Assembly: GCA_947034885.2 (NCBI GenBank)
Contig: OX344752.2
Span: forward strand, 1,674,001 to 1,738,000
Direction of reading: 5' to 3'
Source of the DNA: Thuidium tamariscinum
Lineage: Eukaryota; Streptophyta; Bryopsida; Hypnales; Thuidiaceae
Length of the DNA stretch: 64,000 bases
This document shows positions 1-42,445 of this stretch, in pieces; position 1 is the stretch's first letter; each line of letters opens with the position of its first letter. Position numbers and translations under genes: made by a program. The notes under the pieces are model-generated. The model saw only the letters and a program-made list of their open reading frames with translations, was not told where the DNA came from and searched no databases.

Positions 1-1542
1 GAGGCGAAATCTGAGAAGGAGTTGAAGGTTGGATGAACCTAGGTTCAACGCTTTTATGACCCACTTCGTTAATAGCGCATGTAAAGCATCTTTGGGGTTG
101 ATAAGATTAAGTCCCCCAATATGCCGAGGAATATTGTCCGTCCAACAAACACGGGCCCTAGTGTGAAAGGTAGAGCCAGACTATAGGAAGTCTCTCATAG
201 AGGCTCAAATTTTCCTTATGATCTGTAAAGATCCACCCTAGATGTTGATGAAGAACCATAAGGTGCTAAGCAGGATTGCATTGATGATAACCGTACGCCC
301 TGCAAGAGAAAGGTGGATACTAGTCCAGTAATCGAGTTTCTTCTGAATTTTGGCTTCAAGAAACTCGTCAACATCAAGAGTGTTCAAGTCAAGGCTAAAG
401 GGGGTGCCTAAGAGTTTTGAAATCTGTTGATTCTCGGCCCAAGGACATTCAATATGATGGATCCATGGTGGGGCTAGGTTGGGGAAGAGCCAATAGGCGA
501 GACTTTTTGGCCAGTTGATACGCAGACTTGTAGCAAGTCCGTATCTTTCGATAAGGCATGAAAGATTCCTAAAGCGCTCTTCCCCTGAAATAGTAAAGTT
601 CACATCATCGGCATATTGGTTAATGATTTGAACAACCGACTCTGTTGGGAGATAAATACCTTGGAGAATTCTAGTCTGAACTTGGTGCTTGGCCATTGCA
701 TTCAAGGCTTCACCGACGAATAAAAAAAGGTATAGTACAAAGGGGTAGCCTTGTCGGACGCCTCTGAGGACATGGAACGGCTTTGAGTCTGCTCTGTTAA
801 TACAAACTGAGGCTTCGGCATTGATAAAAAGGAGCTTGACCATCTTGACAAAGTCATCAGGGATACCCGTTTTCCTTAGGGCTTGAAAAAGAAAAGGTAA
901 GTGGACTATATCAAAAGCTTTTTTTAAATCTAGCTTCAAAAGGATGGCATTCTAGTTAGATTCTTTTGCCCAAGAAATAGACTCATGAAGAAGTAGAATG
1001 TTATCAAGGATGTACCTTGTAGGGATGAAAGTTGTCTGATCAGGGTTGATAATTTCAGCTAAGATGGGTTGGAGGTGGTGTTGGAGAGCTTTGGCAAGAA
1101 TTTTGTACACCACGTTGAGTAAGCTGATCGGCCACTAGTTGTTGAGATCATTCTTGGGACCACCTTTGTGGAGAAGAGCAATAGAGCCGCGATTCATGCC
1201 TTGTGGGAGGGCTCCAAGTGTAATTGCTTGTTGGATCATGGTGGTGAACTCTGGCCCAACTAAGTCCCATTACATCTTGTAGAACTCGGTGGTGATGCCA
1301 TCAGGGCCAGGGCTTTTGTTCGAGGACATTGCCTCAACTGCTTCACGTAATTCATGTTCGCTAATTGGACAAGATAAGTCTGCTTTGGCTTCTAGAGGGT
1401 TTTTGTCTGACAAAAGGGACATGAATTCGTCCATAGCAAGTAATTGATCCTGTGAATCGGATTCAACAGCATAAAAGTTGGAATAGAAGTCAGAAACAAT
1501 TTGGTTCAACTCGGATTGGGTCTCAGATAAGTTACCATTCAA
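1..1542 (-). pseudogene. LINE ORF2, reverse transcriptase region, interrupted
   Basis: The minus strand from 1542 reads an RT N-terminus with SNKSPGPDGITTEFYK (the SPGPDG block before finger motif 1), then GSIALLHKGGPKNDLNN, then LKLDLKKAFDIVHLPFL (palm motif A), RGVRQGYP (motif B) and QYADDVNFT (motif C, YADD at about 604-615). Stops fall at 1270-1272, near 1137 and near 952, and two more stops follow below position 238. The reading is otherwise collinear with a plant L1 RT. The region after motif C (GTPFSLDLNTLDVDEFLEAKIQKKLDYW) matches the usual post-RT segment. The rest of ORF2 is outside the window. Confidence 0.85.
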
Positions 1543-14928: not shown

Positions 14929-15236
14929 CCCTTCCAAAGATGGATTGTGGTTGTAGAAAACATGCACTTTGATACCATGTGACATTATCTTCTTTGAATA
15001 ACCTAAATTTACTCATTGGAAGTCAAAGCACCATAGAAGATCTCCCCCTTCCACCTCTAATATTGAGGATGAATAGTTGCACTTCTATCCTACAAGGGAA
15101 GATTCTTTGTCATTCATAGGACACAAAAACCCCTTCCACCTCTAATATTGAGGATGAATAGTTACACTTCTATCTTACAAGGGAAAATTCTTTGTCATTC
15201 ATAGGACACAAAAACATCCACCTTGACAATTAAGGA
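14929..15236. mobile_element. TTAA-flanked MITE, subfamily A copy 2, with internal 85-bp duplication
   Basis: It is flanked by TTAA at 14925-14928 and 15237-15240. The ends are CCCTTCCAAAGATGG (left) and a degenerate AATTAAGGA (right). It carries the same internal blocks as the copy at 13274 (CATTGGAAGTCAAAG, GAAGATCT, TCTTTGTCATTC). An 85-bp segment (15047-15131) is repeated head to tail at 15132-15216 with few differences, which accounts for the greater length. Confidence 0.7.
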
Positions 15237-16168: not shown

Positions 16169-18265
16169 TCAAGTGTTCCCTTCCTGAGCTCCAGTGCCTA
16201 GATACTCCGCCGGTGTGGACGCAGGATCCAGCTCCCAAGCACCAGGAGGCACTCCAGGGCTCTCACTTCCAATCATCTGACGTCGAGGAACACAGTGAGA
16301 GAATCTTCCCTGTATATGCTTGTGCGGAATGTGGTGCATTTCGTCCTCATTCGCAACCGTGAACAGCGACTTGAATCCTTCCACTTTAATCAGAGGCAAG
16401 ACCGACAGTCCATCTGTACTTGAATAGTTGGAAGCCACTTGGACCAAATCATACTCGTAATAAAACGACTGATCCCCGTCTTCCTTCTTCGTCTGCTTCT
16501 TCTCCCAATCTCGGTACAAAGCCCAAATCTCATCCTTTTTAGGCCAAAAAGTGACCATGGAACGCTTGGGATCCCTGTCCACTTCGACAATATGTGAAAA
16601 GGCCGGAAGATCCTGAAGGCAATTGGATCCAAAAGTGAACTCCCCACAGGACGGAGACAGCTTGGCTGTTTTCACGAGGCCATTGGCAGGACAATTAGGT
16701 TTAAAAGGTTCCAGCCACTCCACTGACACTTTCACGGGCGAATTTTGAAGGAGAGTGACGTGGCCATAAAAGCGAGGCATACCATCCTGGTCGTCATAGA
16801 GTGCCCAGAACTGACCCTCTTCAAAGGAGCCTTCACTTCGACTGGCATCAAAGTCACTAAACTCAGCATTCACCACGTCAATCTCTCGATCCTCATCCAC
16901 TCCAGGATTGGGTCCAGCAACGATTTCTGGTGCTTCACTAGGCTCTGACTCAGGCTCGCTGGTCTCCTCTAACTCTACCTCCACCACCGTTGGCTTCGCC
17001 TTCTTTCTAGAGCTTCGAGAGGGAGCCTGTTTCCTCTCTTTCGCTACTTTCGGAGAAGACGCACGTACCTTTCCACTTGCTGGCGTCTTTCGTTGTGGTT
17101 TCCCTGGTGTTTTTCTTGGTGTTAAGAGACTCGTCACTTCATGAGCAGTGTGAGAAGCAGCAATTCTATCCACAGAGTGAATCCCCTTCTCCACTACATC
17201 CTCCACCTGGTCTAGAGAATTGTCCAAGGAACGCTGGGGTTGAGCTTTTTTATGGGATTTCTTCACTCCGGATTTCGAGGGTCTCCTCTTATTCGATTTC
17301 CTCGCAGGCAGAGGATCCGTCTTGGGCTCTGCCACATCAGAAAGACGGTCTATGAACGCCTTTCTGCCACCTGCGGTTTCTCCCTCCGAAAGGCTATCAT
17401 CTGGCACGCCATTGGGATGACCAGCCACAACTGCGTCTAACCAGCTCGGGTCCTTGGAGGTTTCACGCCTTGCCTCTGACTTGGAGTGCTGCTTGTATCC
17501 CAAAGCACTCAAGGGGGGAGGTCTTGTTCCTGGTGCTTGCTCCAGGAGGAGAGGCGCTGGCGATCGAGGCTTTTGCAACAGTGGCAAGGGCTCGGAAGCC
17601 TTTGAGGGTCGTTTTCTGGAGCGTGTTTCTGTGTTGCTAGCACCTGATTTGCGTTTCGCTCGTGAGGATGTCCCTGCCGCAGTCTTCTCAGTTGCGGGTA
17701 CTTCATTTATATGGCCGTTTGTACGGTCTCTTGGTGACACAGTGCCCTCTCGATGAGTTCGCAGCAATGTCAAGCTCCGCTCTTTAGCAGCAATCTCTCT
17801 CTCGAACCCTCGTGTTCTCTTTGCCAGCTCTTTAGTGAGACCATGATGAGCATCCAGCAAAAGCTGTACCATATCAGCAGCCACACGAGGGCCACTATCT
17901 GTAGTTGTTTGCAGTACCAAAACAACTGGCTTCTGGTTCTGTGGCAATGAGCAAATTAGTTCCGGGCTCAAACTCTTGCCCCATTTCAATTCATAGTTAA
18001 CATTAGGCTGCTGTTTGCTGAAGTAGAACTGAACTCTGTCAACATACTCCGACTCAGTCAAACCCAATCTGTTCGCATTCTCCACAACATATTCCTCGGT
18101 AGCTCTGCCAGTCCAGGCATCATTACCATCACAGACCGAAATGGTGAATTCAGATGGCAACCAGGTTCCCTTTATGTATAGCAGAGCAGCCTCCAGTTCG
18201 TACCGGGCTCCCGACCTGGCCACATCGTCGAACCTTGCGCACGTTGAGTTTAGAAGACTCACCAT
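16169..18265 (-). CDS. XRCC4-like N-terminal head fused to a C-terminal DUF3444 domain
   Basis: An uninterrupted 698-residue frame. The start is the first in-frame ATG (18265); an in-frame stop lies a few codons upstream. Residues 1-125 match the XRCC4 head: IKGTWLPSEFTISVCDGNDA, then WTG, parallels FVITLTDGHSAWTG of human XRCC4, followed by ATEEYV and YFSKQQPNVNYEL as in plant XRCC4. Residues 128-172 form a helix (LLLDAHHGLTKELAKRTRGF). Residues 175-470 are a basic and Ser/Pro-rich linker with likely nuclear signals (RAKRKSG, SRKRPSK, KSNKRRPSK). Residues 480-690 match DUF3444: GQFWALYDDQDGMPRFY, VSVEWLEP, EIWALYRDW, YDLVQV, IPHKHIQGRFSHCVPRRQ and a final GAWELDPASTPAEYL. XRCC4 proteins are usually 250-340 residues and act with DNA ligase IV in end joining; DUF3444 usually sits at the C-terminus of plant DnaJ proteins. 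The fused role is inferred: nuclear, DNA repair or chromatin. Confidence 0.88.
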   Translation of the reverse strand: MVSLLNSTCARFDDVARSGARYELEAALLYIKGTWLPSEFTISVCDGNDAWTGRATEEYVVENANRLGLTESEYVDRVQFYFSKQQPNVNYELKWGKSLSPELICSLPQNQKPVVLVLQTTTDSGPRVAADMVQLLLDAHHGLTKELAKRTRGFEREIAAKERSLTLLRTHREGTVSPRDRTNGHINEVPATEKTAAGTSSRAKRKSGASNTETRSRKRPSKASEPLPLLQKPRSPAPLLLEQAPGTRPPPLSALGYKQHSKSEARRETSKDPSWLDAVVAGHPNGVPDDSLSEGETAGGRKAFIDRLSDVAEPKTDPLPARKSNKRRPSKSGVKKSHKKAQPQRSLDNSLDQVEDVVEKGIHSVDRIAASHTAHEVTSLLTPRKTPGKPQRKTPASGKVRASSPKVAKERKQAPSRSSRKKAKPTVVEVELEETSEPESEPSEAPEIVAGPNPGVDEDREIDVVNAEFSDFDASRSEGSFEEGQFWALYDDQDGMPRFYGHVTLLQNSPVKVSVEWLEPFKPNCPANGLVKTAKLSPSCGEFTFGSNCLQDLPAFSHIVEVDRDPKRSMVTFWPKKDEIWALYRDWEKKQTKKEDGDQSFYYEYDLVQVASNYSSTDGLSVLPLIKVEGFKSLFTVANEDEMHHIPHKHIQGRFSHCVPRRQMIGSESPGVPPGAWELDPASTPAEYLGTGAQEGNT

Positions 18266-31106: not shown

Positions 31107-32146
31107 TTACTGCTGCTGCTGACTGGGGGTCACGTCCGACTTGATGGACTCGTAAGCCGTGTTCGCAGCGTCGCGAGTCTGCTGCGCGAGACTGCCCGCC
31201 TTGTCCGAAGCCACTTGCGAGGCATCGGAAGACGCCTGCTTCGTCTGCTCCCACTTCTGACCAGCCACCGCGCCTGCCTGATTGTAAGCCTCGCCAGCCT
31301 TCTGCTGCGCGGCGCCCGCGGCGTCGTACGCACCCTGCTTGGCCTGACCCAACTTCTCGCCCGCCACGCCCGTCGCCTCGTTGGCTTTGTTCTGCGTGGT
31401 GCCCGTGGCGTCCGAGGCGCCCTGCTTCGTCTGTGCCCACTTGTCGCCCGCCACGTTCCCGGCCTGGTTCGCCTTGTCCTGGGCGGTGCCCGTGGCGCTG
31501 GAATTGCTCTGCTTCGACTGCTCGGTCGCCTGAGCCACGGTCGACTTCACGTTCTCGAAGGCGTTGTTGAGGACATTGGTCGCCTGCTGCAAGTAACTGC
31601 CGCCGACCTCCTTGGCCTGCCCGGCCTTGTCGGAGGCCACTCCGGCCGCCTCGCGGGCTTTGTCTTGCGTAGTTCCAGCAGCATCCTGAAAAAAACAAAA
31701 AAACCGTACCCAACAATCAAAAGGTGCTATACAAGTGTAACCAGCTAACATCCCCCGACCACAGCAAACCACATAGGTCAAGCTTCCTGCCCACCGCTTC
31801 ATTGCACACTCTACAGATACATCCGCGAGCTCTCACGGAAGAAAATGCGAGCAAACTGAAACCATTATCCTCACGAAACAGGAGTCACCTTGCGAGTGCG
31901 CTCACTCACTCATGCACCATCTCGTTCAACTGCGAAGACCGCTAATCACTCTCACCGCAACAAATGAATTGAAGCACCCGTTATGCAAGATGCGGACGTG
32001 GTCCACCAGCCTTGCGCGATGGACTAGGGGTTCGCGTCTGTTACCTGGGTGGCTTGCTGGGCCTCGCCCGCCTTCTGCTGCCCAAAGAGCTTGGCATCCT
32101 CGGCCTTCTTGGCGGCGGCGTCCTGGTTGGTGTTGTACGAAGCCAT
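31107..32146 (-). CDS. Group 3 LEA protein (LEA-1), two exons
   Basis: Exon 1 is 32045-32146 (ATG at 32146, donor CAG/GTAACAG), the intron is 31686-32044 and exon 2 is 31107-31685 (acceptor TTTTTTTCAG). The 226-residue product begins MASYNTNQDAAAKKAEDAKL and is hydrophilic, Ala/Gln/Lys-rich and Cys-free, built of 11-mer-type amphipathic repeats (GTTQDKAREAAGVASDKAGQ). A distinctive block recurs as AGDKWAQTKQ, AGEKLGQAKQ and AGQKWEQTKQ. This is the LEA_4 (group 3) pattern: disordered when wet, helical on drying, thought to protect membranes and proteins. No signal or transit peptide, so probably cytosolic or nuclear. It is nearly identical to LEA-3 (about 8 residue differences by eye) and lies in an inverted duplication. 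A TATA box stands about 180 bp upstream of the ATG. Confidence 0.9.
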
Positions 32147-41414: not shown

Positions 41415-42445
41415 ATGGCTTCGTACAACACCAACCAGGACGCCGCCGCCAAGAAGGCCGAGGATGCCAAGCTCTTTGGGCAGCAGAAGGCGGGCGAGGC
41501 CCAGCAAGCCACCCAGGTAACAGACGCGAACCCCTAGTCCACTGCGCAAGGCTGGTGGACAAACTTTCTTGGAGTTCGTATTTTGCATAACGGGTGCCTC
41601 ATTTCACTGGCTTTGGTGAGAGTAATTAATAGTCTTCGCAGTCGAATGAGATGGTGCATGAGTGAGTGGGCGCACTCGCATGGTGACTCCTGTTTCGTTA
41701 GGAAAATGGTTTCAGTTTGCTTGCAATTTTTTCCGTGAGAGCTGTAGAGTGTGCAATGAAGCGGTGGGCAGGAAGCTTGGCCTACGTAATTTGTTGAAGT
41801 CGGGCGAGGTTAGCTGGTTACCTTGTATAGCACTCTTTGATTGTTGGGTACTTTTTTTTGTTACAGAACGCTGCTGGAACCACGCAAGACAAAGCCCGTG
41901 AGGCGGCCGGAGTGGCTTCCGACAAGGCCGGGCAGGCCAAGGAGGTCGGCGGCAGTTACTTGCAGCAGGCGACCAATGTCCTCAACAACGCCTTCGAGAA
42001 CGTGAAGTCGACCGTGGCTCAGGCGACCGAGCAGTCGAAGCAGAGCACTTCCAGCGCCACGGGCACCGCCCAGGACAAGGCGAACCAGGCCGGGAACGTG
42101 GCGGGCGACAAGTGGGCACAGACGAAGCAGGGCGCCTCGGACGCCACGGGCACCACGCAGAACAAAGCCAACGAGGCGACGGGCGTGGCGGGCGAGAAGT
42201 TGGGTCAGGCCAAGCAGGGTGCGTACGACGCCGCGGGCGCCGCGCAGCAGAAGGCTGGCGAGGTTTACAATCAGGCAGGCGCGGTGGCTGGTCAGAAGTG
42301 GGAGCAGACGAAGCAGGCGTCTTCCGATGCCTCGCAAGTGGCTTCGGACAAGGCGGGCAGTCTTGCGCAGCAGACTCGCGAAGCTGTGAATACGGCGTAC
42401 GCGTCCATCCAGTCGGACGTGACCCCCAGTCAGCAGAAGCAGTAA
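41415..42445 (+). CDS. Group 3 LEA protein (LEA-3), two exons
   Basis: Exon 1 is 41415-41516 (ATG at 41415, donor CAG/GTAACAG), the intron is 41517-41866 and exon 2 is 41867-42445 (acceptor TTGTTACAG). The product has 226 residues and an exon 1 peptide identical to LEA-1. Exon 2 differs from LEA-1 at only a few places (for example NAAG for DAAG at the junction, GEVYNQ for GEAYNQ, and the tail TPSQQKQ for TPSQQQQ). It has the same repeats and the same AGDKWAQTKQ / AGQKWEQTKQ signature. Frame, intron phase and near-identity all indicate a functional gene. Role inferred from the LEA_4 family: desiccation and ABA-linked protection. Confidence 0.9.

Follow-up and report, generated by a model that had tools for sequence, protein, structure and literature searches.

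Beside ordinary XRCC4, mosses have further proteins that link an XRCC4-type head through a long flexible arm to DUF3444, a plant domain and possible chromatin-binding module. One of the genes encoding them lies in the window analysed here, a stretch of 64,000 nucleotides from the moss Thuidium tamariscinum (C4:1674001-1738000 in a 363-Mb genome of 19 contigs). To judge from the sequences compared, the join between the XRCC4 head and DUF3444 is real and conserved in mosses alongside ordinary XRCC4, and the most economical reading is that of a dimeric chromatin scaffold derived from XRCC4. The window gene itself is intronless (type B) and belongs to a set of moss XRCC4 paralogs that end in DUF3444; we give about even chances to its product serving as a dimeric chromatin-bound scaffold beside XRCC4.

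The window gene consists of a single frame of 698 codons on the minus strand, with its ATG at 18265 and its stop at 16171-16169. The coding span (18265 to 16172) is open throughout without the need for an intron, while the plus-strand reading of 16169..18265 is full of stops. The original prediction, made from the letters of the window, had described this intronless frame without giving a strand, and the frame does exist. A Pfam scan of the translation places the XRCC4 head (PF06632) at residues 29-92, with 55.9 bits against a cut-off of 26.2 (E 4.5e-15), and DUF3444 (PF11926) at residues 460-668, with 182.9 bits against a cut-off of 26.1 (E 8e-54), the latter at the C-terminus, as predicted. 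No other Pfam family is matched at E <= 1; the J domain (PF00226), the zinc ribbon and the XRCC4 coiled-coil family XRCC4_CC (PF21924) are all without a match at this threshold. The window protein was rejected as a DnaJ protein because it has no J domain. The search of a plasmid collection with the window protein gave zero matches.

The features of the gene are listed below. Fusions are divided into type B (intronless, like the window gene), type A (like a three-exon paralog on C9) and type C (a pair of loci with the head in three exons). The linker motifs, like the AT-hook-like patterns described further on, were picked after the rows of the alignment had been inspected, and no significance is claimed for them.

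16169..18265, minus strand: coding frame of 698 codons plus stop, single exon, comprising XRCC4-type head, helix, basic linker and DUF3444 (Pfam)
17894..18265, minus strand: XRCC4-type head, residues 1-124, with the Pfam match to residues 29-92 at 17990-18181
17747..17893, minus strand: predicted long helix, residues 125-173, a short version of the XRCC4 stalk (structure model)
16892..17746, minus strand: linker, residues 174-458, about 19% K/R and 30% P+S+T, the least conserved part (sequence comparison)
17492..17512, minus strand: linker motif LSALGYK, residues 252-258, in 14 of 17 type-B rows and 0 of 9 type-A rows
17171..17194, minus strand: linker motif VEKGIHSV, residues 358-365, in 11 of 17 type-B rows and 2 of 9 type-A rows
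16262..16888, minus strand: DUF3444 domain, residues 460-668 (PF11926; model pLDDT 89.8, pTM 0.87)
16544..16849, minus strand: first half of DUF3444, residues 473-574, BAH-like in the structure model

The XRCC4 identity of the head is secure through profile or fold comparison. In the fold comparison of the head model, XRCC4, as chains or chimeras, takes all of ranks 1-19, with SAS-6, CCDC61 and PAXX following, and model residues 5-185 align to residues 1-186 of human XRCC4 in the complex with ligase IV (1ik9). The N-terminal region had been said to follow XRCC4 closely. A significant head match does fall within residues 1-125, but the closeness was overstated, with the best human XRCC4 chain reaching E 0.033 in a single-sequence search and XRCC4 chains being 12-16% identical to the head in structural alignment.

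The joined frame is shared by many database proteins. In a first protein search, both domains were present in all 17 matches (lengths 673-821, 37 to 90% identity over the aligned part), 10 of which cover 99-100% of the window protein. A search with the DUF3444 part of the protein P0009 showed both domains in 18 of the best 120 of 250 matches, and a mixed-profile search gave 72 matches, comprising 21 with both domains, five in which the XRCC4 head stands by itself and 46 that have DUF3444 but no annotated head. The union of the protein searches, whose word-based method can miss distant forms, contains at least 24 fusion proteins, which the databases list under such names as hypothetical, uncharacterized or DUF3444 domain-containing protein. 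Six of them carry an organism name and all six belong to mosses: Ceratodon purpureus (two), Physcomitrium patens (one), Sphagnum tenellum (two) and Sphagnum compactum (one). Among the matches listed, the DUF3444 proteins of Riccia, Marchantia paleacea, Diphasiastrum, Adiantum, Ceratopteris and many flowering plants have no annotated head. The predicted lineage-specific character of the protein is therefore upheld as far as tested, given mosses for every named fusion and headless DUF3444 proteins for the liverworts, lycophyte, ferns and flowering plants retrieved. Furthermore, a head profile made from 23 fusion rows was run against 178 proteins (175 retrieved and three from the window and constructed gene models). 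Apart from the fusions, the five XRCC4 proteins and P0137, which has the head alone and is close to a Sphagnum fusion, no protein scored above 2.4 bits. The score had suggested a further fusion in the liverwort Riccia sorocarpa (P0128), which was rejected, as the protein has two DUF3444 copies without a head. In the open literature searched, DUF3444 occurs in 9 papers and no paper contains both names; among 16 papers from a looser search, none deals with the fusion to judge by title and opening of the abstract. Since the joined frame is conserved, two separate transcripts are unlikely.

The ordinary XRCC4 of T. tamariscinum is encoded at C5 by five exons (329 aa; head 39.9 bits, XRCC4_CC 31.6 bits). 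Likewise, the XRCC4 of Ceratodon (KC19_2G064800) is separate from its two fusions (KC19_4G012300 and KC19_10G157700). A tree of the head was built from 29 rows (15 type B, 7 type A, 2 type C and 5 XRCC4, with P0010, P0011, P0017 and P0019 left out), and in it the five XRCC4 proteins, two of them named Ceratodon, are parted from the 24 fusion rows by a branch at 99/96. With a separate XRCC4 at C5 and in Ceratodon, and with the heads split in the tree, the window gene was rejected as an XRCC4 ortholog or the standard plant XRCC4, in agreement with the original prediction. The two kinds of protein also differ after the head. All five XRCC4 proteins match XRCC4_CC, at 31.6 (C5 model), 35.1 (P0139), 23.0 (P0166), 21.1 (P0165) and 23.7 bits (P0170), two of them above the cut-off of 27 bits, whereas none of 13 fusions (the window protein and 12 others) does so at E <= 1.

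In the structure model, the predicted helix stops at residue 173, and confidence is below 50 from residue 176 to the end of the model at 185. In human XRCC4, ligase IV contacts about residues 173-195, a region that would fall beyond this helix, in the part modelled without confidence. The shorter predicted helix is the one argument that the fusion may have lost ligase IV binding. Dimerisation through the head and the short stalk is likely.

These properties bear on the possibility that the fusion is an end-joining factor, whose head enters filaments of the XRCC4/XLF type or pairs with XRCC4 in a mixed dimer while DUF3444 anchors the repair complex to chromatin near breaks. Such a role would suit a head with XRCC4 as its closest fold over ranks 1-19, and a genome with the ligase IV motif PF11411 (C5:17939510, 32.8 bits), presumably the XRCC4-binding motif of ligase IV. 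In Physcomitrium, one study reports that bleomycin raises the transcripts of both XRCC4 and ligase IV, 149-fold for XRCC4 Pp3c1_38430 (PMC4990234). However, XRCC4_CC is unmatched, the helix is short and an ordinary XRCC4 is present. Moreover, another study found differential expression for XRCC4 Pp3c1_38430 but none for Pp3c14_21160, a ‘second XRCC4-like gene’ (PMC8803787) that may be the fusion P0006. We regard end joining as a possible role, though on the unlikely side. The window protein had been predicted to be a repair or chromatin protein; the first half of this is unsupported given the missing XRCC4_CC match, while the second has modest support.

The genome contains at least six DUF3444 loci (eight exon-level matches, all such counts being lower bounds), at four of which an XRCC4 head precedes DUF3444 in the same orientation. 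Besides the window gene, these four comprise the type A paralog at about C9:8162.4-8165.8 kb, a gene of three exons (703 aa) with introns in the linker and inside DUF3444, and the type C pair at C4:31.61 Mb (31605500-31614500, minus) and C1:28.85 Mb (28843500-28852500, plus), which share 79-85% DNA identity. The type C heads, in three exons, reach 54.1 and 49.1 bits, and the DUF3444 exons are divergent, at 115 and 125 bits against a profile built in this analysis; the exon limits represent a reading of splice sites. The linker frames of type C contain an AT-hook stretch like GRKGRPPGAK or GRRGRPPGAK. From strand, distance and linker frames conserved between the two copies, we infer that the type C head and DUF3444 form one gene. 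All four fusion loci keep the head above the Pfam cut-off, two of them via exons joined in this analysis. The other two DUF3444 loci are a J-domain gene at C11 and an apparently decayed J-domain copy at C3:30.838 Mb (L030:8105-9695), with broken frames and a neighbour that looks phosphatase-like by eye. A further locus at C1:39.223 Mb (L019:3580-8347) has AT-rich XRCC4-like head exons below the Pfam cut-off (14.8 bits; 24.4 bits), then a frame of about 1,100 codons with 29% G+C, low-complexity by eye; no DUF3444 was reported there in the genome scan.

The gene structures point to the origin of the family. Exon 2 of XRCC4 at C5 measures 135 bases and lies between phase-0 introns, and the third head exon of both type C copies has the same length and intron phase in the matching place, which suggests that type C was derived from an XRCC4 gene together with its introns. 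Among the fusions, type C may be the oldest form. No intron interrupts the head in the window and C9 genes, which would fit later intron loss.

A DUF3444 tree was built from 46 domain rows of 36 chosen proteins and models, among which P0131 is a fragment without the head part. It sets 16 type-A/B rows on one side against 30 others (100/99), so that one join is enough for the window gene and its paralog. Within this tree, 11 type-B rows group with the Sphagnum row P0028 at 99/96. In the head tree, unlike the DUF3444 tree, type B is not one group (two changes needed); type A holds at 93/99, and a group of types A and B together is not established (85/71). The type C head groups with the fusions on a branch 3.3 long, and long branches (P0102, P0028 and type C) make the deep part of the head tree unsure. 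When type C was added to the DUF3444 tree, the 16 A/B rows stayed together at 100/99, and a single DUF3444 clade of types A, B and C was neither supported nor rejected (p-AU 0.23). Since Sphagnum-named proteins occur in both types (P0028; P0011, P0014), the duplication into A and B seems to predate the separation of Sphagnum and the other sampled mosses.

Comparison of the DUF3444 model with solved structures gave BAH chains at ranks 1 and 2. When solved structures were searched with a profile from the DUF3444 alignment, J-domain chains led the best 60 of 70 matches because the aligned rows are whole proteins, J domains included. DUF3444 had been described as normally found in plant DnaJ proteins, which holds for many of its carriers but not for Physcomitrium DNMT3a/b, which are reported to have a C-terminal DUF3444 (PMC6453930). 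A review describes DNAJ1/2/3 in association with the methylation readers SUVH1/3 (PMC8395315), which is not counted as evidence here.

The fusion could also be a replacement or regulator of J-domain DUF3444 proteins, with the head as a dimerising stand-in for the J domain and the protein as a whole in competition for shared DUF3444 sites in gene regulation. Two of the at least six DUF3444 loci of the genome are indeed J-domain genes, one apparently decayed, and many other retrieved DUF3444 proteins bear J domains. Nevertheless, the fusion DUF3444s stand apart from the moss J-domain DUF3444 row (100/99) and shared sites are hence not implied, leaving this an improbable explanation.

The linker is basic and falls behind both the head and DUF3444 in conservation in all 13 comparisons. 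AT-hook-like patterns are present in 8 of 9 type-A linkers and in 0 of 17 type-B linkers. The lower conservation of the head relative to DUF3444 (12 of 13 comparisons; 31% vs 46% to the C9 paralog) would be expected if the head were a functionless by-product of gene fusion, left to drift while DUF3444 carries the whole function. This is very improbable in view of the constant advantage of the head over the linker, the six head columns invariant across 25 rows, one of which is an ordinary XRCC4 exon, and the retention of the head above the Pfam cut-off at four fusion loci of the genome. An artefact, in the form of adjacent genes or a misassembly read as one frame, can be practically dismissed, both domains standing in a single protein in the at least 24 database proteins and in the three-exon locus of the same genome.

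The dimeric chromatin-bound scaffold would work as follows. The head and the short helix would hold two copies together, as head and helix do in XRCC4, SAS-6 and CCDC61, and the long basic linker would let the two DUF3444 modules reach chromatin. DUF3444 would act as a BAH-like reader or docking module, a view drawn from its presence in DNMT3 and its modelled fold. The scaffold would have given up the ligase IV role, working beside XRCC4 and not replacing it. As a more speculative extension, to which we attach a small probability, these chromatin-reading XRCC4 paralogs might steer where, or whether, breaks are joined in mosses, and could help explain the ready homology-based integration of DNA.

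Elsewhere in the window, two 85-bp tandem copies (96% matches) lie at 15045-15215, about 1 kb past the 3' end of the gene. Two near-identical LEA-like frames, at 31107-31802 (minus) and 41837-42445 (plus), show 94% identity over 200 residues in opposite orientation, about 10 kb apart; one has a weak, sub-cut-off LEA_4 match, and the plasmid collection search with a LEA-like frame gave zero matches. Finally, a reverse-transcriptase fragment (RVT_1, 46.4 bits) is found at 238-939 (minus).

XRCC4 is usually regarded as a single-purpose partner of ligase IV. The fusion resembles it in the head domain, the fold and the helix after the head, and differs in the absence of a PF21924 match, the shorter predicted helix, the 285-residue linker with DUF3444 and the coexistence with ordinary XRCC4. 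Counts of moss ‘XRCC4-like’ genes may take in a protein that has ceased to serve as a cofactor of ligase IV. Plant J-domain DUF3444 proteins (PF00226, PF23551, PF11926) share the C-terminal DUF3444, whereas the fusion has an XRCC4 head, no J domain, no zinc ribbon and a DUF3444 that branches separately. Within DUF3444, the first half possibly has a fold in common with BAH-domain readers (EBS, SHL, DNMT1 BAH1), as far as the model indicates. In SAS-6 and CCDC61, an XRCC4-like head with a coiled coil, the arrangement that the fusion resembles, serves as a scaffold outside repair; the moss paralogs, keeping the head and swapping the rest for DUF3444, would be a plant parallel to this reuse of the fold. 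Physcomitrium DNMT3a/b, as reported (PMC6453930), offer the other parallel, a chromatin protein that ends in DUF3444 and is not a J protein, with a methyltransferase where the fusion has its XRCC4 head; the trees contained no DNMT3 row.
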